A stretch of 28,361 nucleotides of DNA. It comes from a virus. The stretch lies in IMG/VR virus record IMGVR_UViG_3300020473_000100, positions 1 through 28,361 of that record. One strand, given 5' to 3'. Position numbers and translations under genes: made by a program. The notes under the pieces are model-generated. The model saw only the letters and a program-made list of their open reading frames with translations. It ran no database searches and was not told where the DNA came from. Positions 4,522 through 28,361 of this stretch are shown in pieces. Positions within the stretch are counted from its first letter, which is position 1. Each line of letters opens with the position of its first letter.

Positions 4522-5843
4522 TATTGTTGTGCCTTAATAATTTCATCAATTAATAACCCTTCTTCTGAAGGTTGTTCAGCATCTATTTGTTCTACAATGC
4601 CTTGTATTTCTTCTTCTTGTAAATCAGGGTTTTTCTTTCTTAAATAACTTTGTCTTGTTTCAATATTGTTTTGAAATGCCCAATCATAGTATTTGATTTC
4701 TTCATCTTGACTCATAGGCACTTCTCTTTCAGCAAAGTCTATACTGAATTGATCCCCTAAATTAATCCCACCTGATACTTCACATATTCGTTGTGCAATC
4801 TTAAATTGTTCTTTCTCAAATGGTCTATAAATTTGTTCTATATCACTACGAAGTGAATCCATTAAATCCAATTGACCCATTTTCTTTGATAGTCCACTTT
4901 CTGCTTGGTTGCTTGTCCAGTTAATCTTGACATTGTTTGCTTGTGCAATACTATCTACCATATACTTGGTTGATTCAATCATGGCTTGGACATTCGCATT
5001 CGGAGTTCTGTATTGAAAGTCTGCACCTTCAGGCAATACTAATGCTTTATCTTGCCCCATAGTGATTCGTTGTTCAGTATCCAAATTTAAGAACACAGGT
5101 TGACCGAGTTGCATTCTGCCATGCAAAGCTAATTCAGTCAACATAATATTCACACTTCTCATACCATTGACAAGATCACTTGCCCCTTCTCTAAAGAAAT
5201 CTCTTGTGTATGGGTGTCTATGTGCTATGTTAAATGGTAAGACATCACCATAAGGGTTTCTATCGCCCTCTATCATCGAAGTAATCTTTCCTTTTGAGGA
5301 TATACAGAAGTGTTTTCCTTCCATATCTTCAGTATCTTTACTCCAAAACATATATTGAGCATCTTCTGTTCGTGCTTGTAATTGGCTTTCTGCTTGATAA
5401 ATAATAGCAAATGGTTCATCTTCGTTTGGTCTAAAGAATGGTGTAAAGAAGTGAATAGGACGATACTTTAGTTTCTTTGCATTGTCGTCCCAATGAGTAT
5501 AGAGTGCTTCTGTTCCTAATAGATAAGTCAGTTGCTCAAATTGTTTCATGAATGAGTCTAAATCTCCAATGACTTCGTTATACTTATCGTTATATCTTAT
5601 TGGTGCTTGTTGATATACTAATGCTCTACGACTAATGATTGCACGAACTAAATTGATATACATTGGTGGTATTTGAGATAAACTATCGCTATCGAAATAC
5701 CCTTTAATGTCTTGTTCCAGGTTGATCCCTTCATAGTAGTCTAATAATCGTTCTCGTTCTTCGTGTTCTTTTTGCACTCCCTCTTGTATGGTGTCCATAA
5801 GCAAGTCATGTAGCATCTTTTCTGTTAAATTATAAATAATCAT
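4521..5843 (-). CDS. Portal protein
   Basis: The portal forms the ring at the capsid vertex through which DNA is pumped and to which the tail is joined. This 440-residue protein sits between the terminase pair and the Mu F-like head protein, the standard portal position. Its N-terminal half contains the pattern of an SPP1/HK97-type portal wing, and a long helical stem region follows (QAMIESTKYMVDSIAQANN, then LRSDIEQIYRPFEKEQFKIA). The C-terminus is acidic (DAEQPSEEGLLIDEI), as in many portals. It begins MIIYNLTEKML, with the ATG overlapping the preceding micro-gene by 4 bases (ATGA). Confidence 0.85.
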   Translation of the reverse strand: MIIYNLTEKMLHDLLMDTIQEGVQKEHEERERLLDYYEGINLEQDIKGYFDSDSLSQIPPMYINLVRAIISRRALVYQQAPIRYNDKYNEVIGDLDSFMKQFEQLTYLLGTEALYTHWDDNAKKLKYRPIHFFTPFFRPNEDEPFAIIYQAESQLQARTEDAQYMFWSKDTEDMEGKHFCISSKGKITSMIEGDRNPYGDVLPFNIAHRHPYTRDFFREGASDLVNGMRSVNIMLTELALHGRMQLGQPVFLNLDTEQRITMGQDKALVLPEGADFQYRTPNANVQAMIESTKYMVDSIAQANNVKINWTSNQAESGLSKKMGQLDLMDSLRSDIEQIYRPFEKEQFKIAQRICEVSGGINLGDQFSIDFAEREVPMSQDEEIKYYDWAFQNNIETRQSYLRKKNPDLQEEEIQGIVEQIDAEQPSEEGLLIDEIIKAQQ

Positions 5844-13436: not shown

Positions 13437-13468
13437 AAGGTATGTTAATTAAAACAAAGGAGAAAATG

Positions 13469-13705
13469 ATGAACAAAACACAATTAAAAAAATGGATTAA
13501 AAACAACATATCAACAAGACCAACACCTTTTGGCACTTATTATGGTGTAGATTTACGACCATTAGGGGTAAGTCAAGCGATTCATGTAAGTATTGATAAA
13601 AATAAAGCTATAGCAGAACTAACTGATGAAAATAAATCAAGTTTCAAAACGATTTACAAGGCAGTTAATAACATAGTTGTAGGTAGTGGAGATTTCTATA
13701 AATAA
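13469..13705 (+). CDS. Hypothetical plus-strand protein 1, 78 residues
   Basis: AAAGGAG at 13456-13462 points to the tandem ATGs at 13466/13469; spacing favours 13469 (MNKTQLKKWIKNNISTRP). A frame-open ATG at 13442 is at the predicted transcription start and is unlikely. The protein is basic at the N-terminus with TPFGTYYGVDLRPLGVSQAI in the middle, and looks like a small alpha/beta protein. It is one of only two rightward genes, transcribed away from the origin and divergent from the early operon, the place where phages often keep regulators. No helix-turn-helix is evident. Confidence 0.7.
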   Translation: MNKTQLKKWIKNNISTRPTPFGTYYGVDLRPLGVSQAIHVSIDKNKAIAELTDENKSSFKTIYKAVNNIVVGSGDFYK

Positions 13706-13778: not shown

Positions 13779-14240
13779 ATGAAATATAAACTTAAAAACA
13801 GCGATTTAGATTTTTTAAGAAATCTAATCAGAAATAGCAGTAATATTTGGGATGATGCACCATATATGTATTTTGGTGATGGTCATTTTGCTTTATCAAC
13901 TGATTATTATGGACAAACTATTAAGAAAGGGTTTGATTCTTCACCTGCATTAGTTACTTCAGTTTGGAATCATAAAGATGGTCATGTCTATTCTACTGCT
14001 GATGATGCAATTTGGAACACCAATAGAGGTAGTTATGCAAGAGCAGACTATAAGATCTTAATGAACCTTAAAAGAAATAAAGTTCTTAATAATGTTCACA
14101 TGGATGATGGCAACTTTCATATCACTCTTGATTTAGACTATTTACCATTAATCATGGCTGATGGATTTGCAGATTCAAAAACTGATAATTACCCAAGAGT
14201 AATTGTCAAAGATATTTTTGCAAACCCTGATGTAGGATAA
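13779..14240 (+). CDS. Hypothetical plus-strand protein 2, 153 residues
   Basis: It starts MKYKLKNSDLDFLRNLIRNSSN after an AAAAGGAGA ribosome site. The protein is rich in Asp, Asn, Tyr and Phe: DDAPYMYFGDGHFALSTDYY near residues 25-45, DGHVYSTADDAIWN near 70-85, and HMDDGNFHITLDLDYLPL in the last third. There are no cysteines, signal peptide or membrane segment. Acidic, aromatic small proteins expressed early are sometimes DNA mimics or host inhibitors, but nothing here proves that. It is followed within 25 bases by a strong terminator. Confidence 0.72.
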   Translation: MKYKLKNSDLDFLRNLIRNSSNIWDDAPYMYFGDGHFALSTDYYGQTIKKGFDSSPALVTSVWNHKDGHVYSTADDAIWNTNRGSYARADYKILMNLKRNKVLNNVHMDDGNFHITLDLDYLPLIMADGFADSKTDNYPRVIVKDIFANPDVG

Positions 14241-15121: not shown

Positions 15122-17605
15122 TTAAACCTCTCTACATTGAACTGAAACTTTCCCTATTTGTCGTTTCAGGTTTGTTATAATAAATCTTTTGTCTGACCAT
15201 TGTTCACTAAATAGTCTTGTAGGCATTGCTACCATATCATCAAATGTATCAGATATTTCACTAAATGGTGTTCCAAGATTACCAAATAATGTATCACCGA
15301 AATCCAGGAAGTCCCCCACTTGCAACATTCCATACTTTTCAGGATTAATAATTGTAGCACTCATTGTGGTTTTATATTGTCCAAATAATGCACTTCTGAA
15401 ATTAATCCAATCACTATTTCTATCTCCCCCTGCACCATCTACTGCACTATAAAGCATATCAAGATTTAATTCTTGTTTTTGGTGTGCTGCATTATCAAAG
15501 ATTGTGCTATGAACTGATCCACTAACTGCTGATACATAAGTTTTTTGTTGTAGGTATTCATTTTCAGCAGGGTGTTTTTTATAATTAACCACTAATGAAG
15601 TTTCTAAATCACCTACTTCTGTAATACCGATTTCATAATCTGATATATCGACTTCTGATAAACTTTTATCTGCTGTTGGTGTTCCATTAGCAATCGTAAA
15701 ATATCGTAATGAACTTACCCCTGTAATTGCAGTTTGTTGTGCTTGTGGACTAAACTCAAAAAAGAAACACCCTTCATATTGTAATTGTTGTAATACAGAT
15801 TCTATGGATTCGGTATCTTGTAGTTCTAATCGTGTTTTCCAATGAGTAGTAGCAACACTATCTACTGTTGATGTATCTGAATCTCTCAATTCTGCTACAC
15901 TCTTATATCCACTATCTACATTATCTGTATCATCTGCTAAATCATAATCCAATACACTTTTTAATAGTTGTCTATGAATAGATACTGGATTGTTGAGTGC
16001 ATCTTGTGTTGCACTATGTCCTGTAAAGGTATTAGAAGTAATATCTCTACCTAAATATACTTTATCAATTCCAGCATTAAAGTCTGATGATGCTATTGGC
16101 TCGTTTGCATTATCATTTTCAGCAGTTACTGTTACATAAATATTGCTTAAAACAACATTAGCACTTGAATAAGAACCTTCATCTTCTGCATTAAATCTAA
16201 AACTTAAATATAGATCATCAGGCAAGGCATTGTTTTCTAATATACTTGATATGTCTGTAGATGTAGGTAGTGCTGTATTTGTTTGATTTGTTTTTATTGA
16301 ATTAACCAATACAACATCACCTGAAGTAGAACCAAATCCACCACTTAAAGCATCTGCCAAATTAAAGAAAGCACCTTCATCGCCATCAAGACTACTAATA
16401 CTTTGTGAGTAAGTTCCTGAAAGATTTAAAGTAATTGCAGTAATTTTACCAGTAACTTGTGGCATATTAAGTTTTAATACCACACCCCTACTTTCACTTG
16501 AAAAACTGCTACATGAGAAAGTTCCATTATCTCCTGTATCTCCATTAAATGTGTTTGCAAGACTTCCTGAACTTAATGACCACCCTGTGCTTAATGTAGA
16601 TGTAACCTCATCAGGCAACATTTTAAATTGCCTTCTCATTAACTTTGGAACAGATATTGTTTCTGCACCATCTACAACTACTGTTATTCCTGCATTGTTT
16701 AAATGTGTTGTTGCACTCGTGCTATTATATCCCCTTGTAACAGTAAGTGTGTTTGTTGAAATAGATGTAATAAGCATTTGTTCGCTATCTATTTTAATAA
16801 CATCATTAATTGAAAAAACAGTTCCATCATCTACATCAACCCCTGTTTCTGAATTGTCTAATGCTTCATTTAATAATGTTGTGTTTGTCTGTGTTAATTC
16901 TAAAAATCTTTTCATTCCCTTATCATAAAATTCTAACTTGTCTTCGCTGTTTGTTCCTTCAGGCACAATATACATAAAATTCTTTCCATCATTTTTTAAG
17001 AAAGGACAAGCATAAACATCTGTTCCATTTGTAAATCCTGAATTGGCAGTATAATCCCCATATACCAATGGAATTACTTTGTTGTTATATTGCTCAATCG
17101 TAGAGTTACTTGTTTTTGTAGTTGGAATAGATACATTTTGAAATGGTCTATTTGAAATCAAACTAATTACTATCACATTGTTCCGATAAGCAAAACTGCT
17201 AATTCTTCCACTAAAGATTTGTAGAGCATTAGCAGCTGTGCTATCGTCATCTATGACTGACAAGATATTTACTTGTCCATTTATGTATGTATTTCCTAAT
17301 TGTTCAAGCAGTTTTGTTCCATCTATATCCACATTCGCTATATTTAAAGTTACACTTCCAGTTTTGGTTGTGAATCCTTTTAAATCAAGCGAATAACTAA
17401 CACTTGGTTTATTTAGAATTGCTGGTATATAATCTAATGAATTGTATGTAGCAGTTGTTGATCCACTATCTGCTGCAAAACAAAATCTCAAATCAGGTGT
17501 ATTTGTGTATAATATACTTGAATTGGTATTTTTAAAGATTTGAACCAACCAATTCTCTTTCATGGTTGGTGCTAACTTTGCTGAATAATTAGAATTTACA
17601 AACAT
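15122..17605 (-). CDS. Tail hub / tail tip protein
   Basis: At 827 residues this is the largest complete protein here. It starts MFVNSNYSAKLAPTMKENWL, with the ATG overlapping the preceding micro-gene stop as TAATG. The N-terminal portion (about 1-170) is strand-rich, with DLRFCFAADSGSTT and SVTLNIANVDIDGTK, as in tail-hub proteins of the siphovirus/marine type. A DNSETGVDVDDGTVFSINDV-type beta domain follows at about 245-300 (this surface module is common in phage tip proteins). The C-terminal part has an L-rich LEDTE-type helix and a final VSVQCREV. It likely closes the tail tube and binds the receptor. No enzymatic motif was seen. Confidence 0.75.
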   Translation of the reverse strand: MFVNSNYSAKLAPTMKENWLVQIFKNTNSSILYTNTPDLRFCFAADSGSTTATYNSLDYIPAILNKPSVSYSLDLKGFTTKTGSVTLNIANVDIDGTKLLEQLGNTYINGQVNILSVIDDDSTAANALQIFSGRISSFAYRNNVIVISLISNRPFQNVSIPTTKTSNSTIEQYNNKVIPLVYGDYTANSGFTNGTDVYACPFLKNDGKNFMYIVPEGTNSEDKLEFYDKGMKRFLELTQTNTTLLNEALDNSETGVDVDDGTVFSINDVIKIDSEQMLITSISTNTLTVTRGYNSTSATTHLNNAGITVVVDGAETISVPKLMRRQFKMLPDEVTSTLSTGWSLSSGSLANTFNGDTGDNGTFSCSSFSSESRGVVLKLNMPQVTGKITAITLNLSGTYSQSISSLDGDEGAFFNLADALSGGFGSTSGDVVLVNSIKTNQTNTALPTSTDISSILENNALPDDLYLSFRFNAEDEGSYSSANVVLSNIYVTVTAENDNANEPIASSDFNAGIDKVYLGRDITSNTFTGHSATQDALNNPVSIHRQLLKSVLDYDLADDTDNVDSGYKSVAELRDSDTSTVDSVATTHWKTRLELQDTESIESVLQQLQYEGCFFFEFSPQAQQTAITGVSSLRYFTIANGTPTADKSLSEVDISDYEIGITEVGDLETSLVVNYKKHPAENEYLQQKTYVSAVSGSVHSTIFDNAAHQKQELNLDMLYSAVDGAGGDRNSDWINFRSALFGQYKTTMSATIINPEKYGMLQVGDFLDFGDTLFGNLGTPFSEISDTFDDMVAMPTRLFSEQWSDKRFIITNLKRQIGKVSVQCREV

Positions 17606-17715
17606 TATTTTTTATTTCTCCATTTAATTGATTTACAATCACATTTATCACCCCATTTGCACCAGGCAAAATGAAGTCCAAATCCAAATCCTAAACCTAA
17701 TAAAAATCCTACCAT
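17605..17715 (-). CDS. 36-residue glycine-rich membrane micro-protein
   Basis: An ATG at 17715 follows AAGGGGGATATA, a clear ribosome site, and the TAA overlaps the tail-hub ATG as TAATG. The product starts MVGFLLGLGFGFGLHFAW, a Gly-zipper-like transmembrane helix. A short basic, Cys-containing tail follows (CKWGDKCDCKSIKW). It is the fourth gene in a row that is predicted to reach the membrane or envelope. Function unknown; a pore-forming or lysis-timing role is conceivable. Confidence 0.7.
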   Translation of the reverse strand: MVGFLLGLGFGFGLHFAWCKWGDKCDCKSIKWRNKK

Positions 17716-17725
17716 TATATCCCCC

Positions 17726-18799
17726 TTAATATATTAACCAGTTAAATCCAGTTTTCGCTTCGTATGATTGTATGTCATACATATTCAAGTATCTTCCTTC
17801 AACGAAAACACCGAATCTTGAGTTTAGTTTCCAACCTAACACTAAACCTAAATCGTAATCCATTCCATTTTCTGCTATTTCATAATTAAATGAATAATCA
17901 GACATACCCTTTGTTACAGGATATGTGGTTGCCCAAAAATGAAACCAATTACTATCTGTGTATTTATAATAATCTACACCTAAAGATAAAGATAACTCAT
18001 TTTGATACCCTAAATCTTTCGCATATTCCTCATTATATTCTTCTACGATTTGTCCATAGACTTGAGTGTAGAACTCTTGGTCAGTTGATGCTACAAGATT
18101 TCCTTGTTCATCAAACCATAACCAATCATAGAACTCATATCCATATTGTGTCCATTGTTGTGTCCATTCGTCTGTATATCCTTTATCGTATGCAAATAAC
18201 CAAAATGGAATATACTCACTTATGTCTATCCCTTGTTCGTCCCACCATAAATCAATCGGTAAGAAATCAAGATATGCAGGGTGTGATCTACCTGCTACTC
18301 CAATAGATAAATCAAGATTACCAAGATTTTTTCTATATCGCATATCTATTCCTGCGAACTCTAAATCTTCTAATCCTCTGTAATCGTAATTTCCTTTGAT
18401 TATAAACTTTGGTGCTAAATATCGTAACATTACTTCCTGTTCGGTAAAAGATTCACCAAACTCTTGGTGTTCAGAATATTCTAATACATATTCCCACCCT
18501 TTAGCCATACCATTGCCGATTGCTACACTTTCGTTAATAGGTGCTTCTTCGCCACTATACCACACTTCAGGTTTATTTTCATAATCAAATCGTGCTAACT
18601 TTCTAATACCAAAAGTTAGTTTGCTATGGTCTTCTAATTCCTCTTGCAAGGATTGTAATTGTCCACCTGTAACTTGGAATGTTTGTTCCTTTGTTAGTGG
18701 ACTGGTTAAACTATATGCACCATAAATAGTGCTAAACTTAAAGAAGTCTTGACCATATAGACTTCCTAACAATAATAAACTAAATAATAATTTTCTCAT
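17726..18799 (-). CDS. Secreted outer-membrane beta-barrel-like protein
   Basis: This 357-residue protein starts with a textbook signal peptide, MRKLLFSLLLLGSLYGQ, with cleavage expected near the G/Q. The mature part alternates polar and aromatic residues (for example LDLSIGVAGRSH, LSLSLGVDYYKYT, DLGLVLGWKLNSRFGVFVEGRYL). It ends in FNWLIY, an aromatic C-terminus of the kind read by the outer-membrane assembly machinery. A central Trp/Tyr-rich segment (about 180-235) may be a large loop. The start has AAGGAGATTTCA and overlaps the thioredoxin-like stop by ATGA. Roles could include superinfection exclusion or change of the host surface. A bacterial OMP-like protein within a tail operon is unusual. 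Confidence 0.72.
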   Translation of the reverse strand: MRKLLFSLLLLGSLYGQDFFKFSTIYGAYSLTSPLTKEQTFQVTGGQLQSLQEELEDHSKLTFGIRKLARFDYENKPEVWYSGEEAPINESVAIGNGMAKGWEYVLEYSEHQEFGESFTEQEVMLRYLAPKFIIKGNYDYRGLEDLEFAGIDMRYRKNLGNLDLSIGVAGRSHPAYLDFLPIDLWWDEQGIDISEYIPFWLFAYDKGYTDEWTQQWTQYGYEFYDWLWFDEQGNLVASTDQEFYTQVYGQIVEEYNEEYAKDLGYQNELSLSLGVDYYKYTDSNWFHFWATTYPVTKGMSDYSFNYEIAENGMDYDLGLVLGWKLNSRFGVFVEGRYLNMYDIQSYEAKTGFNWLIY

Positions 18800-19203
18800 T
18801 GAAATCTCCTTAATAGTATATTGTCTATTTCCTTTTCTATTGCTTTTTTAATATCGTCTGCATTTAATTTAAACGATAATCCTGCTTCAAATCTTTTAAT
18901 CTCTTTGCCTTTTTCAAACATGATGATTGTTGGAACAGAAACTATTTTCCATTCACTTGCTATTACTGCACCATATTCTTTATTGTCTATACTGGCATTA
19001 AACCAAACACAATTCTTCATTTTACCTAAATCAATAGATGATCCTATATTCCAATCTGCATTTACTTGTATTACTACACATTGGTTTTGACTTAAAAACT
19101 GAACTTCTTGTAAGCTTTTAAGTGTTTGTTGCCCATACAATAAGGACGATGATAAAAACAATCCAAAGACTAATAAGCATTGTTTTAAGTATTTTTTCGT
19201 CAT
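18796..19203 (-). CDS. Secreted thioredoxin-fold protein lacking the CxxC site
   Basis: This 135-residue protein has a signal peptide (about residues 1-24, LLVFGLFLSSSLLYGQ). The remainder follows the thioredoxin plan: VVIQVNADW at the active-site strand, VSVPTIIMFEKGKEI with the conserved cis-proline, and a final helix. At the place of WCxxC it reads DWNIGSS, so both redox cysteines are absent; the only other cysteines are C37 and C59 elsewhere. It is therefore a binding or folding module and not an oxidoreductase. It is translationally coupled to the outer-membrane-like gene, so it may assist that protein in the periplasm (inference). Confidence 0.72.
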   Translation of the reverse strand: MTKKYLKQCLLVFGLFLSSSLLYGQQTLKSLQEVQFLSQNQCVVIQVNADWNIGSSIDLGKMKNCVWFNASIDNKEYGAVIASEWKIVSVPTIIMFEKGKEIKRFEAGLSFKLNADDIKKAIEKEIDNILLRRFQ

Positions 19204-19212
19204 AATGTTTCC

Positions 19213-19506
19213 TCATTTTGTCATCAACAATCGTTCAATGCTCTTTACATCTTCTCGCATTTCTTTTTGTTGTTCTTTTACTTCTGTTACATCTTTTTGT
19301 GTTTCGATGATAGTATTTCGTATCATCTGATCTTTTAAGTCATATTCGGTTCGACCCACTTCAGGCTTTGGTAGCTCTTTAGCTTCTTCAATATCTGATT
19401 GAAGTGTAAACCACATACCAATAACCATACCAAGAGTAGCTACTCCAGTTACTATACTCTCAAGACTTAATGTAAATTTGCTATCTTTACTGACTTCTGT
19501 TGCCAC
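19213..19506 (-). CDS. Membrane-anchored coiled-coil protein
   Basis: This 97-residue protein follows the tape measure gene. One hydrophobic segment (LESIVTGVATLGMVIGMWFTL, about 15-35) is followed by a polar coiled-coil region (ETQKDVTEVKEQQKEMREDV) and a basic end. The topology would be an N-in or N-out single-pass anchor with a long soluble helix. It resembles inner-membrane spanin or holin-associated proteins in layout. No lipobox gene or outer spanin was found nearby, so the role is open. Confidence 0.65.
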   Translation of the reverse strand: MATEVSKDSKFTLSLESIVTGVATLGMVIGMWFTLQSDIEEAKELPKPEVGRTEYDLKDQMIRNTIIETQKDVTEVKEQQKEMREDVKSIERLLMTK

Positions 19507-19515
19507 TTTGTCCTC

Positions 19516-21270
19516 CTATAAGTTTAATTTTCTTGCTCTTTCTATTGCTGGAATAATACTATCTACTACATATTCATCTACAACAGGTGCATTAATGTTT
19601 ACTACTATATTACCACTACTTCTTTGATTGGGGCTTGGTAGTGGTGTTACATCTATTCGTTCCATACCACTTGCATTATCACCAACTATTGCAGGTGGAT
19701 TAGTAGGAAGTATAGTTTTTTTATTTATATCAAAACTACCACCACCAGCAAACTTATTAATAAAGCTACCACCTGTTGAAAATCCAAATATTTTAGTTGC
19801 TGTTGCCAAAGCAGCTTGTTTTCTCTTTTCGTTTGTTATTCTTTTTTCAATAACTAATTGTGCTATTAATTGAATAATTGCCCTTCCTACACTTTTAGTA
19901 AATTCTTTACCTGCATCTGCCATATCTTGTCCTGACACTGCACTTGACAATAAAGAAGTAGAAGCATCTTTTGAGTTCTTTTTAAATGTTTCTGATGCAG
20001 TTGCTTTTTCTTTTTCTGCATCTCCACCATCATCGCCACTATCTGCACCATCTTTTTGAAATTGTGCTATTTGTTCTTGAACTATTTTTAACTGATCATA
20101 TTGTCCTAAAAGCTCATAGTTTGCTTCTAATTTTTTTAGTATAAGCAAATAATCATCTTCTGCTGCTTGGTTTGCATCTAATTGAAGTTGATATGCTTCG
20201 GAGTTTTGTTCTATAATCCTATCACCTCTACTACTAACTTTTTTAATAGTGTCAAGACCTGCTCTTTCCAATTTATCAATTTCTTCTGCTGACACCATTC
20301 TTTTATTAGCAGCATCTTCCATTTGTTTTTCAAGATTAATGTTTTCTTTATTAATTTCTTGTATAGATTTTTTCCCTACCAACTCTCTTTTTAAATCAAA
20401 TTCAATTCTTTTTGTTCTTATTTTTTCAAGTTTTTCAACATTAACTCCCAGCTCACCCAACTCTCTAATGGTTGTTTCAAGTTCAGTTTCTGTTAAACTT
20501 AAATAGAAATCCCTACTGTTTTTTGCTGCTTCTTTAAAAAAATTAGCAATTCCAATTACTGCTGGAGATAATAGTTGTCCAAGTGCTTGTGAAGCATCTC
20601 CTTGTGCATTCTTCATTTGTTCTAAAGCTCCAGGCATAGTCTGTCCTGCTGCTTTTGCAACTCCACCAAATTGTGTTTCCAATTCTCCCAAAATTACCTT
20701 TTGTGCAGAAGCAATATCTCCAACTTCAACAAAATGTCTTACTGAATCTTCTTGTTGTTTTGACAATTGAACACCAACTCGCCTCAATGCAGTAACACCC
20801 AAGATTGGATCATTCAATGCTTTACCAACTTGAATAACAGATTGTTTCATGTCCACACCCATTGCTTCAGACATATTCATTACTGTTTCTATTGCTTGTG
20901 GGAACACATCTTTTCCTACTTTTGTGAAAGTAAGCATTAATGCTTGGGAAGTCATAATCGCTTCATCTCCATATCGTGTTTGGGCTTGAAGTGCAGCAGC
21001 CATATTCTTTAACTCTTTAGAAGTTAGACCTGCTACATTCTTTGTGGATTTTAATACTGCATTTAATTGTGCTTCTGCTAATGCTTGTTTTTTGGTTAAT
21101 TCAATAACTTCTTGGAAACCTTGTATTAACATTCTCGCACCAAAAAATGCACCAGCAGTTGCTATTGCAGACTTTGCTAATTTATTTAATCCTTTATCTA
21201 CTTTTCCTACACTTCTCGCTGCTTTATCTGCACCTGTGGCTTTTATATCTAATCTTACCTTTTTAGCCAT
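19516..21270 (-). CDS. Tail tape measure protein
   Basis: This 584-residue, Ala/Lys-rich, largely helical protein follows the frameshifted tail chaperones, the invariant siphovirus position. An early hydrophobic segment (AIATAGAFFGARMLIQGF, about 35-52) is a candidate membrane-inserting helix. The middle region resembles the phage tail tape measure core (PQAIETVMNMSEAMGVDMKQ, VGKALNDPILGVTALRRVGV). The C-terminal third has long coiled coils and ends VDSIIPAIERARKLNL. With about 0.15 nm per residue, the rule for tape measures, the tail would be near 90 nm. The start overlaps the chaperone frame by 8 bases. Confidence 0.93.
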   Translation of the reverse strand: MAKKVRLDIKATGADKAARSVGKVDKGLNKLAKSAIATAGAFFGARMLIQGFQEVIELTKKQALAEAQLNAVLKSTKNVAGLTSKELKNMAAALQAQTRYGDEAIMTSQALMLTFTKVGKDVFPQAIETVMNMSEAMGVDMKQSVIQVGKALNDPILGVTALRRVGVQLSKQQEDSVRHFVEVGDIASAQKVILGELETQFGGVAKAAGQTMPGALEQMKNAQGDASQALGQLLSPAVIGIANFFKEAAKNSRDFYLSLTETELETTIRELGELGVNVEKLEKIRTKRIEFDLKRELVGKKSIQEINKENINLEKQMEDAANKRMVSAEEIDKLERAGLDTIKKVSSRGDRIIEQNSEAYQLQLDANQAAEDDYLLILKKLEANYELLGQYDQLKIVQEQIAQFQKDGADSGDDGGDAEKEKATASETFKKNSKDASTSLLSSAVSGQDMADAGKEFTKSVGRAIIQLIAQLVIEKRITNEKRKQAALATATKIFGFSTGGSFINKFAGGGSFDINKKTILPTNPPAIVGDNASGMERIDVTPLPSPNQRSSGNIVVNINAPVVDEYVVDSIIPAIERARKLNL

Positions 21271-23708: not shown

Positions 23709-23842
23709 TATCCTTGCCCTCTATGTCTTTTTTTATAATACTTCTTTGACAACTTATTTCCATATTTTGTATTATGGCTTTGTCCTTGTCTTGTTTTCTT
23801 TTTACCATTACTTCTATATACATTGATTACTTTTCTTGCCAT
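23708..23842 (-). CDS. 44-residue highly basic protein
   Basis: This micro-gene fills the gap between two genes exactly: its ATG at 23842 overlaps the upstream stop as TAATG, and its TAA overlaps the next ATG as TAATG. The product MARKVINVYRSNGKKKTRQG continues with Lys/Arg/Tyr-rich sequence (LSKKYYKKRHRG). About one third of residues are Lys or Arg, so it could bind DNA or RNA, or neutralise charge in the head. Function unknown. Confidence 0.72.
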   Translation of the reverse strand: MARKVINVYRSNGKKKTRQGQSHNTKYGNKLSKKYYKKRHRGQG

Positions 23843-24057
23843 TATTTTTTATAAACTTTTTCTGCACCTGCAATTCCAAAAGAACCTAATGTTACCCAAA
23901 CAAATGAATTATAAACATTGTCGTTTATAATAATTTCTTGTCCAAGTAACCCTGTTACTAAATCCACTATTCCAAATACAACCATAATAGCAAAGGAAAT
24001 AAATCCAATGATTGCTTTTTCGTTATACTCGTTTTTGTCTTTAAATATTGCCCACAT
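23842..24057 (-). CDS. Two-helix membrane protein, 71 residues
   Basis: Residues about 16-37 (AIIGFISFAIMVVFGIVDLV) and 49-65 (NSFVWVTLGSFGIAGAE) are hydrophobic, separated by a short loop with INDN. The N-terminus has charged KDKNEYNEK and the C-terminus ends KVYKK, so both ends are likely cytoplasmic. This is the layout of a small holin-like protein, but a 3TM holin gene is found elsewhere in the window. The start overlaps the basic protein stop at 24057. Confidence 0.75.
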   Translation of the reverse strand: MWAIFKDKNEYNEKAIIGFISFAIMVVFGIVDLVTGLLGQEIIINDNVYNSFVWVTLGSFGIAGAEKVYKK

Positions 24058-25494: not shown

Positions 25495-26260
25495 TTTTAC
25501 CTCTTATGATTTGATTGTTCCATGTTGTCATTCCATTATGAATATCTAAAACGATAAGATTGAACCACCCATCTTCAAAGAAATCTATAATTCCTACATT
25601 GTGTGTCCAATTTACCTTTCTTCCTTTCAAAAAATCTTTCTGCACCTTGCATAAGCAACCCATACTTTGTGCTATATGCACTCCTGATATATGTTGCATT
25701 ACACTTCGTTGACAATCGTGTGTATGTCCATAGATTACATTACACCCTAAATTCTGAACAGTAATCCTACTATGGTTTACTGATGTATAATGCCCACCAT
25801 GATAAGCATACAGCTTTGATCCTTCAACTTTAAATAACTCTCCATAGGGATACCATTTATAACCCCTATTTTCAATTCTAAACAATCTTTCAGGTAAATA
25901 TTCTTCTAAATATGGGTTTTCTTCAACAAAGTGGTTATACCATGCTTCGTGATTGCCCATTGCCAAATACTTTCTTTTACACCCTACTTTATCTAATACT
26001 TTGTCAATTCTATCTAAATGATGATTGACTTCATCTGCCTCTTTGGCTATCAATGGTAATTGATATTCCAAAGGTGGTCTTTTTCTTCTGCTCCATCTCC
26101 AATGTGAAACAAATTCTCCTTCTGCAAAGTCGCCCAAATTAATAAACACATCAGGCTTTACTTTTTCAATAACCTTTAATGCACAACTAAATGCCTGTTC
26201 GTCATGCAATGGAAAGTGCATATCGCCAAAAACGACTGCACTACTCTTTATTTTCTTCAT
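25451..26260 (-). CDS. Calcineurin-like metallophosphoesterase
   Basis: This 269-residue enzyme has the complete metal-binding set: FGDMHFP (Asp13, His15), LGDFAEG (Asp44), GNHE (102-105), AYHGGH (152-157) and GHTHD (178-182). Members hydrolyse phosphate mono- or diesters on nucleotides or nucleic acids with two metal ions; the substrate here is not readable. The C-terminal tail is Arg/Lys/Asn-rich (GVRRNNSKNKRNK). The gene lies between lysis and connector genes and follows the muramidase by a 4-base overlap. Related genes occur in many phages with unknown purpose. Confidence 0.88.
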   Translation of the reverse strand: MKKIKSSAVVFGDMHFPLHDEQAFSCALKVIEKVKPDVFINLGDFAEGEFVSHWRWSRRKRPPLEYQLPLIAKEADEVNHHLDRIDKVLDKVGCKRKYLAMGNHEAWYNHFVEENPYLEEYLPERLFRIENRGYKWYPYGELFKVEGSKLYAYHGGHYTSVNHSRITVQNLGCNVIYGHTHDCQRSVMQHISGVHIAQSMGCLCKVQKDFLKGRKVNWTHNVGIIDFFEDGWFNLIVLDIHNGMTTWNNQIIRGKNGVRRNNSKNKRNK

Positions 26261-26730
26261 ATACTAATTGCTCGTTTAAACCAACCATAGTAAAATCGTT
26301 TTTGATCAGGTTTCTGATTGACTAACTCTCCATAAAACAAACAACGAAATGCTTGTAATCGCCTTTTAGATACTTTATGTGAGTGTTCTATCGTTACCTT
26401 ACCGATAAGACCATCTTCGGCTATTTTCGTGCTTCCTATGCTATTTATAGTTTCTTGTAGGACAATAACTGCTCGTTTTTGCCCCATATTGACACACATA
26501 TCAAAATAAGTTCCCCTTATTTCTTCAGGAAGATGTTCTGCCTTACTTGGTTTCCAATAATCGTTATAATAGATATTAATAGCATCGTCCACATTGAGAT
26601 TCTTAATATCAACTTCAGGATACCATCTTTTAGCAATTCCATAATTGGTTTCTCCTCCTGTATCATGGGGATCATTGACATAACCCCCTTCATGTTCAAT
26701 TACTTGATCTATAATTTCATTAAAGTTCAT
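26257..26730 (-). CDS. GH108-type endolysin (N-acetylmuramidase)
   Basis: From the ATG at 26730 (MNFNEIIDQVIEHEGGYVND) the protein has 157 residues. EGGY with catalytic Glu14 and TGGETNYGIAKRWYP are the GH108 hallmark; the central NMGQKRAVIVLQ fits the family body. A longer frame upstream is out of step with the holin gene, which it would overlap widely. The chosen start overlaps the holin stop by 4 bases and has AAAAGG before it. It degrades peptidoglycan at the end of infection. There is no signal peptide, so it needs the holin to reach the wall. Confidence 0.9.
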   Translation of the reverse strand: MNFNEIIDQVIEHEGGYVNDPHDTGGETNYGIAKRWYPEVDIKNLNVDDAINIYYNDYWKPSKAEHLPEEIRGTYFDMCVNMGQKRAVIVLQETINSIGSTKIAEDGLIGKVTIEHSHKVSKRRLQAFRCLFYGELVNQKPDQKRFYYGWFKRAISI

Positions 26731-27098
26731 GCCGACCTTTTCACTTTCTCGTAGCTTCTCAATCCACCAAGTCCCAACATCCCCATTAAAACAGTCGTTA
26801 GAGTAGTCATGTCGAATCCTGGTAATTCCATAGGATTCCCAATAGCCGACAATACAAACATTAACAATGGTTGCAATACGAAGTGATAGCATAAAGCAAA
26901 CCCACAAGTCCACCCTACGAATGGTCGCCAACCACTCACAAATAGGTTTGTAGAACCTGCTTCTACTTTGTTTACTTCTATTTGTGCTTTGTTGATTTCT
27001 TGTATTAATTGTGCTTTTTCCTCTTTGTCTAAAGTGAATTTATCTACATGACCTGCTACTTTGTCTATGATCCCTGCTACTACATTTAATTTAGGCAT
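26727..27098 (-). CDS. Holin, three-transmembrane GTA-holin type (3TM_holin)
   Basis: This 123-residue protein has a charged helical N-terminal part (TLDKEEKAQLIQEINKAQ). Then comes the family's key segment FVSGWRPFVGWTCGFALCYHF, a second hydrophobic stretch (LLMFVLSAIG) and a third (LTTVLMGMLGLGGL), ending in a basic KVKRSA. The SGWRPFVGW stretch is typical of 3TM holins. It would form the lesion that lets the muramidase out. It overlaps the upstream gene by 8 bases and the endolysin by 4. Confidence 0.87.
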   Translation of the reverse strand: MPKLNVVAGIIDKVAGHVDKFTLDKEEKAQLIQEINKAQIEVNKVEAGSTNLFVSGWRPFVGWTCGFALCYHFVLQPLLMFVLSAIGNPMELPGFDMTTLTTVLMGMLGLGGLRSYEKVKRSA

Positions 27099-27318
27099 CT
27101 TTTCCTTCTTTCACTTCTTCTTTTTTATCAAAAGATTCTGTTAGCATTTTAGCAAAAGCACCTTCAGCAACACTTTCTTTATCAATGTTAAATGCTAATT
27201 GTGCTTTATTTCTACGACAAGTTTCTATGTGTTCTACCAAGATTTTTTGTTCTTGTGATAGTTCATCATAGTTATAGTCTTTATCGTTTATGTTTACTTT
27301 TCTTTCGTTTTCTGACAT
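27091..27318 (-). CDS. Small acidic protein, 75 residues
   Basis: The protein starts MSENERKVNINDKDYNYDEL, with a short strand motif then helices (SQEQKILVEHIETCRRNKAQ). The opening pattern KVNI..K.Y.YD.LS..QK..V resembles small proteins common in marine phages near fiber or lysis genes. It is acidic overall with a Lys/Glu-rich end, and has no membrane segment. It overlaps the holin start by 8 bases. Function unknown. Confidence 0.7.
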   Translation of the reverse strand: MSENERKVNINDKDYNYDELSQEQKILVEHIETCRRNKAQLAFNIDKESVAEGAFAKMLTESFDKKEEVKEGKDA

Positions 27319-27345
27319 ATTTTCCTCATATTGTTAAAAAATTCT

Positions 27346-27639
27346 TTATGTATATTGTCCACCAATACAATTAGCAAGATTATATGGTGCAACCCCTATA
27401 ACATCATCATATAAATTTGTTGAATCTGCTGTTGTGGTTATTGGATTATTTGTTCCACCAATCACATCAAAGTCTTTTGCTGGACCACCTGCACCACCAA
27501 ATGTATGGTCAATTCCACCAATATCTCCACCATTGCACAAACTTGCCAAACTTAAATTGGTTGTTTCGTTACAATCAGTTGATACTCTCAAATGGTTATA
27601 TATTCCTACATTTGTTGTTGGGACTTTAGGTAATGCCAT
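27346..27639 (-). CDS. Gly/Asn/Thr-rich protein, probably virion-associated
   Basis: This 97-residue protein (MALPKVPTTNVGIYNHLRVS) has low-complexity sequence with three cysteines and a GGDIGGIDHTFGGAGG stretch. The ribosome site AAGGGATAGT precedes the start. Composition and position right after the fiber suggest a small structural or fiber-accessory protein. There is no signal peptide and no motif I recognise. Confidence 0.65.
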   Translation of the reverse strand: MALPKVPTTNVGIYNHLRVSTDCNETTNLSLASLCNGGDIGGIDHTFGGAGGPAKDFDVIGGTNNPITTTADSTNLYDDVIGVAPYNLANCIGGQYT

Positions 27640-27640
27640 A

Positions 27641-27883
27641 CTATCCCTTTATCTTTTTATATTCAACAATGTCTGCTTTAAGTTCAGTCACTTTTGCTTC
27701 AGCATCTACTAATTGTGCTTCTGCTTGTGAAATTGCTTCATCTACATCTTTTGATTCAGTCCAATCTACTACTGAAACATCTTTCCCTGCTTCATCTTTC
27801 ATTGAACGAAGATGTTTGATTTCAACCATTTTTACAGAACTTTGTGCTTGTTCTTGTGCTTTTTCTGCTATTTTCTTAGCCAT
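27641..27883 (-). CDS. Coiled-coil protein, 80 residues
   Basis: The ATG at 27883 follows AGGAGATAGTA, a strong site, 2 bases beyond the fiber stop. The protein is Lys/Glu/Ala-rich with two helical repeats (MAKKIAEKAQEQAQSSVKMV and DEAISQAEAQLVDAEAKVTE), typical of an oligomeric coiled coil. It may be a fiber-assembly or base accessory. Function unknown. Confidence 0.68.
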   Translation of the reverse strand: MAKKIAEKAQEQAQSSVKMVEIKHLRSMKDEAGKDVSVVDWTESKDVDEAISQAEAQLVDAEAKVTELKADIVEYKKIKG

Positions 27884-27885
27884 TA

Positions 27886-28361
27886 CTATCTCCTGTTATA
27901 TTTAAGTTGGTCATAGTTTGCTTTTAACAAATCTATTTCTTCTTGTTGTTCTTTTATTGCTTCTATTAAAACACCAACTACTTTATCATAATCAATCGTT
28001 TTATATGTTTCGTTATCAATAAAAGCCATTTTCTTTTCCCTGACAATTTCAGGTAAAACTTTTTCTACTTCTTGGGCAATTAACCCTAAATCTTTTTGTC
28101 CTTTTCTATTCCCTTTATTCCAGTCAAATTCAACTCCCCTTAATTGCATCACTTTATCAAGGGCATTATCTATTGTTTTAACATTGTCTTTTAATCTTTC
28201 ATCTGATACTGAAGTAGAATATGCTACAACATCAGCATCAACATGGAGATTGCCAGTATGATTTACTAACATTCTTAAATCCATTGTTTGTGATGAAGCA
28301 GAACTATCTGAAGTATAAAATCCTACTCCTACTTTATCTGCATCACTATCTGTTTGAACAG
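27886..28361 (-). CDS. Fiber C-terminus with peptidase S74 intramolecular chaperone (partial)
   Basis: The frame enters from the right edge without a start (VQTDSDADKVGVGFYTSDSS precedes the internal ATG at 28284), so the N-terminus is missing. It shows the S74 pattern SDERLKDNVKTID (about 28206 downward), then GVEFDWNKGN, GLIAQEVEKVLPEIV and a final coiled coil (KEQQEEIDLLKANYDQLK). S74 domains trimerise the fiber and release themselves by cleavage just before the Ser of SDER. This is the missing kind of C-terminus for the fiber cut by the left edge. Confidence 0.88.
   Translation of the reverse strand, partial: VQTDSDADKVGVGFYTSDSSASSQTMDLRMLVNHTGNLHVDADVVAYSTSVSDERLKDNVKTIDNALDKVMQLRGVEFDWNKGNRKGQKDLGLIAQEVEKVLPEIVREKKMAFIDNETYKTIDYDKVVGVLIEAIKEQQEEIDLLKANYDQLKYNRR

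Follow-up and report, generated by a model that had tools for sequence, protein, structure and literature searches.

A conserved phage gene trio encoding an inner-membrane coiled coil, a CxxC-less thioredoxin fold and a predicted outer-membrane barrel: a candidate lysis complex

Results and Discussion

Gene arrangement at the locus

The stretch of DNA analysed here, hereafter the window, is the complete 28,361-base virus record IMGVR_UViG_3300020473_000100, with a GC content of 33%. Four genes on the minus strand lie between the tape measure gene and a gene for an 827-residue protein. They encode a coiled-coil protein (CC), a thioredoxin-like protein (Trx), a barrel-like protein (Barrel) and a membrane peptide (mini). 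The features considered below are as follows.

15122–17605: 827-residue protein, downstream neighbour of mini, no family match
17605–17715, minus strand: mini, membrane peptide of 36 residues
17726–18799, minus strand: Barrel, 357 residues
18008–18277, minus strand: Barrel insert, residues 175–264, between strands 7 and 8
18796–18799, minus strand: ATGA stop/start overlap of Trx and Barrel
18796–19203, minus strand: Trx, 135 residues
18799–18831, minus strand: C-terminal tail of Trx, EIDNILLRRFQ
18806–18811, minus strand: AAGGAG, Shine–Dalgarno sequence of Barrel
19213–19506, minus strand: CC, 97 residues, GTG start
19516–21270: tape measure (PF06791/phrog_27166)
26257–26931, minus strand: endolysin (Glyco_hydro_108 and PG_binding_3)
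26727–27098, minus strand: holin (PF11351 GTA_holin_3TM, phrog_3427)

The original prediction had placed four envelope-directed genes at 17605–19506, between the tape measure and a tail hub. All four ORFs were found there on the minus strand and the tape measure was recognised by its family matches, but the identity of the 827-residue protein as the hub found no backing. The predicted ATGA overlap of the Trx and Barrel genes was present, as was the very good ribosome site of Barrel, which lies within the 3′ end of the Trx gene just upstream of the Barrel ATG. Barrel was encoded in 75 IMG/VR loci with 69–99% identity, and the pairwise omega values of 0.10 for Barrel, 0.18 for Trx and 0.15 for CC indicated purifying selection on all three; on these two grounds, the trio consists of real genes. 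The mini peptide carries a conserved CKWGxKCDC motif, has no lipobox and follows Barrel in a subset of the relatives; it is an accessory outside the core trio.

The window trio lies among tail genes approximately 7 kb from the holin and endolysin genes, on the same strand, and is probably part of one late operon with them. The endolysin probably starts near position 26730, judging from the sequence, the upstream part of its ORF overlapping the holin gene. In many short-tailed relatives, the genes downstream of the trio include an orthologue of this holin. The S74 chaperone, small ORFs and 3TM holin at 26727–28284 form a block, the members of which also flank the trio in short-tailed relatives, and the tail tip, lysis and envelope genes show a pattern as if they travelled together by host. 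At 23842–24057, the window encodes a 71-residue protein with two TM segments, possibly a second holin or an antiholin, that recurs near the trio in loci L337–L341 and L428. Two ORFs on the plus strand, opposite to the trio (13442–13705 and 13779–14240), were shared, among the first 75 loci, by the nearest relatives alone (L002 and L063, 99–100% identity).

Sequence and predicted structure of the three proteins

Read by eye from the sequence and alignments, CC has a lysine-bearing N-terminus with an N-in orientation, a single TM segment at approximately residues 18–36, a conserved RTEYDLKDQMIR after the TM segment, an acidic stretch and a heptad C-terminus, in which a 3–4 repeat extends over five heptads (I62, I66, T69, V73, V76, Q80, M83, V87, I90, and L94). 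The heptad part is predicted to be periplasmic, and by this reading CC has the N-terminal TM segment, type II topology and periplasmic coiled coil of an i-spanin. At least 586 relatives of CC are present in IMG/VR. Its profile yielded only matches with E > 0.1 in the PDB, and an assignment as a minor tail protein was rejected, the PHROG matches not being significant.

In terms of Trx, the secreted thioredoxin fold proposed originally was borne out by Pfam, by a PDB profile match (E = 1e-4) and by Foldseek, in which nearly all the top matches were thioredoxins or thioredoxin domains; the Trx members of L264 and L428 were above the Pfam thioredoxin cut-off. The protein shares with thioredoxin (PF00085) the beta-alpha-beta fold and the cis-Pro region, with the cis-Pro kept in the motif VPT. 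In contrast to thioredoxin, Trx is predicted to be secreted, with a signal peptide cleaved between LYG and Q, ends in a Phe-bearing tail and, as the original prediction had missed, lacks the active-site cysteines. The catalytic CxxC is absent from every aligned Trx, and VNA[DS]WN (VNADWN in the window) or AKFN replaces AxWCxxC. The L428 contig encodes a canonical WCGPC thioredoxin (4680–4937) besides its CxxC-less Trx. Two widely separated Trx copies are present in the record of L007 (53.6 kb) and likewise in that of L196 (51.4 kb); they represent either paralogues of the cassette or record ends that were joined or permuted.

The AlphaFold model of Barrel contained about 12 long strands (pLDDT 71.5, pTM 0.62), and its top 50 Foldseek matches in the PDB were all outer-membrane barrels, in agreement with the barrel-like protein originally proposed. 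The best match in the viral structure library (BFVD) was A0A516LKJ4 (26% identity, E = 2e-21), an entry without a name, and the matches there also included several from phages that are annotated as porins or outer-membrane proteins. The sequence has a signal peptide cleaved between LYG and Q, a conserved FGIRKLARF motif and a C-terminal strand ending in NWLIY. Barrel is thus predicted to be a secreted outer-membrane beta-barrel, with the features of that class, in a model of moderate confidence in which the strand count of 12 could be off. The 90-residue insert is acidic and rich in aromatic residues (20 D/E, 2 K/R, and 24 F/W/Y), has a core pLDDT above 90 and is conserved even among distant homologues; provided that the strand count is right, it would be extracellular. 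With a broader motif, at least 560 relatives of Barrel were found in IMG/VR. The barrel of L059 (3241–4209) has 322 residues, 35 fewer than its relatives, owing either to a deletion or to an assembly error.

Conservation of the trio and its spread among phages

Both CC and Trx were encoded within 1.2 kb of all 111 distinct barrels that had at least 1.2 kb of flank on both sides, whatever the gene order or phage type. The Trx and Barrel genes, put forward originally as a pair, are indeed conserved together in relatives, but the unit is really a trio with CC as its obligatory third member, and CC–Trx pairs without a barrel also occur in many phages. In the first 75 loci, the three genes stayed together while their neighbours changed completely. 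Some relatives share the tape measure and tail genes of the window, whereas most carry a different set, with the phrog_511 internal virion protein and the phrog_1328 major head protein, and these are probably short-tailed phages. On the Barrel tree, the long- or short-tailed label changed seven times, at least three of the changes being forced by supported branches, indicating that the cassette moved between long- and short-tailed phages, a movement that the original prediction had overlooked.

The carriers of the trio are hundreds of uncultured, mostly marine phages. Protein searches with eight trio proteins gave no match among 50,697 sequenced phages, and neither CC nor Barrel belongs to a family in Pfam, PHROGs or NCBIfam, Trx being matched by the thioredoxin fold only. 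Scanning the genomes of 84,980 species with a pattern from the Barrel alignment found nothing, and no barrel homologue was found in 395 sampled Bacteroidota genomes except in the seed phage contig. In line with the original prediction, which knew of no named system with this composition, literature searches found no description of a CC–Trx–Barrel set.

The C-terminus of Trx varies with the presence of the barrel. Phe or Tyr occupied the last or last-but-one position in all 133 distinct Trx proteins with a barrel partner and in none of the 28 from CC–Trx pairs without one, and no barrel was encoded elsewhere in the records of these pairs (up to 51 kb). Because the barrel label changes only twice on a joint CC and Trx tree, this correlation amounts to about two independent co-losses rather than 161 independent observations. 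In type I, the last Trx residues also encode the ribosome site of Barrel, and the tail LRRFQ might be a mere read-out of that site. This explanation is weakened by the L264-type Trx proteins, which keep the Phe tail although no barrel gene lies downstream, making a role of the tail at the protein level more likely.

Linkage to lysis genes

The trio is strongly associated with lysis genes. Among distinct loci with enough flank, 71 of 78 had an endolysin or holin gene within 2.5 kb, compared with 24% of random 2-kb blocks from related phage records. Many of these genes form overlapping operons, across which the endolysin type and the gene order vary and the trio is constant. Specifically, L264 and L331 have an overlapping operon in the order endolysin–Barrel–CC–Trx, the endolysin of L264 being an M15 protein according to Pfam, and L263 has the order M15 endolysin–CC–Trx–Barrel. 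Among the 80 loci nearest to the L264 barrel, CC was beside the barrel in 78 and an M15 endolysin was nearby in 64. The order CC–Trx–Barrel–endolysin–holin, with mostly overlapping genes, was found in L388, L404, L355 and L402, the last with an overlapping M15 endolysin and a 3TM holin. An Amidase_2 protein takes the endolysin slot in L383 (CC–Trx–Barrel–40-residue ORF–Amidase_2–holin), and a PG_binding_1 and Amidase_2 protein follows Barrel–CC–Trx in L428. As in the window, the trio of L393 lies among tail genes. In a second group, 33 of 50 loci had a recognised endolysin and no recognised holin within 2.5 kb. The CC–Trx pairs without a barrel were near lysis genes in 2 of 13 cases, a count that may be low if the queries miss their lysis genes; with no detectable proximity to lysis genes, the pair may act otherwise or use another partner.

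Host

The likely host is a member of the Bacteroidota, with the proviso that contigs of metagenome-assembled genomes (MAGs) can be misbinned. Every aligned Trx and Barrel has Gln as the first residue after the predicted cleavage site. A Gln after signal cleavage is the rule in Bacteroidetes, with a few further lineages also scoring high (PMC5837995). The CC profile matched three contigs in bacterial genome assemblies, two of them, L263 and L264, labelled Bacteroidetes. Within the order of the L264 MAG, CC matches were found in 3 of 296 genomes, one being a short match at a contig edge; among 299 genomes of another phylum, none but the seed was found. One of the matching genomes contains L428, a phage contig in a Bacteroidota MAG. 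Directly upstream of Barrel in L428 (11202–14186, minus strand) lies a gene for a 994-residue protein with a T9SS type A sorting domain (TIGR04183). Strong ribosome sites are unusual for Bacteroidota, and those of the window are at odds with this expectation.

Comparison with spanins and other known systems

In a search for lipoboxes over all six frames, the window and 12 related phage records, some of which may be incomplete, showed no lipoprotein ORF with a credible start; the scan was home-made, and the controls lambda Rz1, Bor and the L337 lipoprotein were detected. These genomes therefore encode no recognisable o-spanin or u-spanin, which fits the spanin-less class of PMC6139136. Neither Trx nor Barrel has the lipobox of an o-spanin, and no credible ORF combines an N-terminal lipobox with the C-terminal TM segment of a unimolecular spanin. 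Although the trio shares with spanins a position in the lysis cassette (within 2.5 kb in the 71 of 78 loci above, and approximately 7 kb away in the window), by definition it is neither a two-component nor a unimolecular spanin, since it lacks a lipoprotein. A Pro-rich, 140-residue lipoprotein with an LASC lipobox, resembling an o-spanin, is encoded just after the endolysin in L337 (8840–9262), a locus of a trio-bearing phage, and probably also in L338 and L339.

The trio resembles two-component spanins (lambda Rz/Rz1 and T4 PseT.3/PseT.2) in having an inner-membrane protein with an N-terminal TM segment and a periplasmic coiled coil, an outer-membrane partner, and small overlapping genes that often lie in the lysis operon with endolysin and holin. 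In contrast, its outer-membrane part is a predicted beta-barrel rather than a lipoprotein, it always has a third protein with a thioredoxin fold, and its sequences showed no similarity to a spanin family. It shares the presumed function and host group with unimolecular spanins (T1 gp11) but comprises three proteins rather than a single one. Outer-membrane proteins encoded by phages are exemplified by Lom and the phage PA-2 porin; these act alone in lysogens, and the Lom gene also adjoins tail genes. Like them, Barrel is a phage-encoded outer-membrane barrel, but it is larger, has two obligatory partners and is associated with lysis genes. Bacteroidetes phages have been reported to use only unimolecular spanins (PMC12596118). 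The spanin survey of Kongari et al. (2018) lists Bacteroides and Croceibacter phages among those without spanins, remarks that the role of an o-spanin could be filled by an OMP, and names the outer-membrane breakage by spanin-less phages as an open question (PMC6139136).

Proposed role and alternative explanations

Block of superinfection, alteration of the receptor and aid to release had all been offered originally as functions. Release is favoured, since in many relatives the trio shares overlapping operons with the endolysin and holin genes, and the other two are less supported. We consider it somewhat probable that CC, Trx and Barrel form an envelope-spanning lysis complex that replaces the spanin and uses a barrel where spanins have a lipoprotein. 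From the features above, we infer a physical complex, an order of contacts and a rupture of the outer membrane. Late in infection, CC would enter the inner membrane and extend its coiled coil into the periplasm, Trx would be exported as a non-catalytic adaptor, and Barrel would be inserted into the outer membrane. Trx would dock on Barrel through its Phe-ended tail and on CC through its body. Once the holin and endolysin had removed the peptidoglycan, the linked complex would collapse or draw the membranes together, and the outer membrane would break.

The same parts list, in the same place next to the holin, could also serve as a sensor of lysis timing or lysis inhibition, in which Barrel senses an event at the outer membrane, such as the arrival of another phage, and Trx and CC relay it to the holin; the conserved acidic-aromatic insert, predicted to be on the cell surface, would suit such a role. 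We regard this as rather unlikely, considering that the holin is not adjacent in many relatives (the 33 of 50 loci of the second group) and that no motif for holin binding in the periplasm was identified. Superinfection exclusion or receptor masking, with Barrel blocking or mimicking the receptor, Trx as its chaperone and CC as an anchor, is consistent with the existence of phage-encoded outer-membrane proteins such as Lom and the PA-2 porin and with the location of the window cassette inside the tail operon. It is nevertheless unlikely, given the late lysis-operon location in relatives and the conservation, not diversification, of the predicted surface insert; moreover, masking needs no obligatory set of three proteins across the envelope.

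An auxiliary gene set that modifies the envelope or aids uptake by the infected cell would accord with the porin-like fold of Barrel and the horizontal spread of the cassette, but is very unlikely in view of the linkage to lysis genes and the lack of a barrel homologue in the 395 Bacteroidota genomes (bar the seed contig) and in the 84,980-species scan. Equally improbable is a virion or injection component that helps DNA across the envelope, as might be suggested by the tape measure and downstream tail genes that flank the trio in the window and in relatives, because Sec signal peptides take Trx and Barrel out of the cytoplasm, where virions assemble, and phages whose tails are unrelated have retained the trio.

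We regard the architecture of the trio as new, whereas its presumed job, outer-membrane disruption in lysis, is already known. There is perhaps an even chance that the trio represents a third class of phage outer-membrane disruption, widespread in Bacteroidota phages without lipoprotein spanins, in which a pseudo-thioredoxin adaptor plugs its Phe-ended tail into the barrel and is joined to an inner-membrane coiled coil. If true, this would provide a concrete and common answer to the question of outer-membrane breakage in the absence of spanins, would allow three protein families found in hundreds of viral contigs to be named, and would mean that outer-membrane barrels are among the possible lysis effectors.
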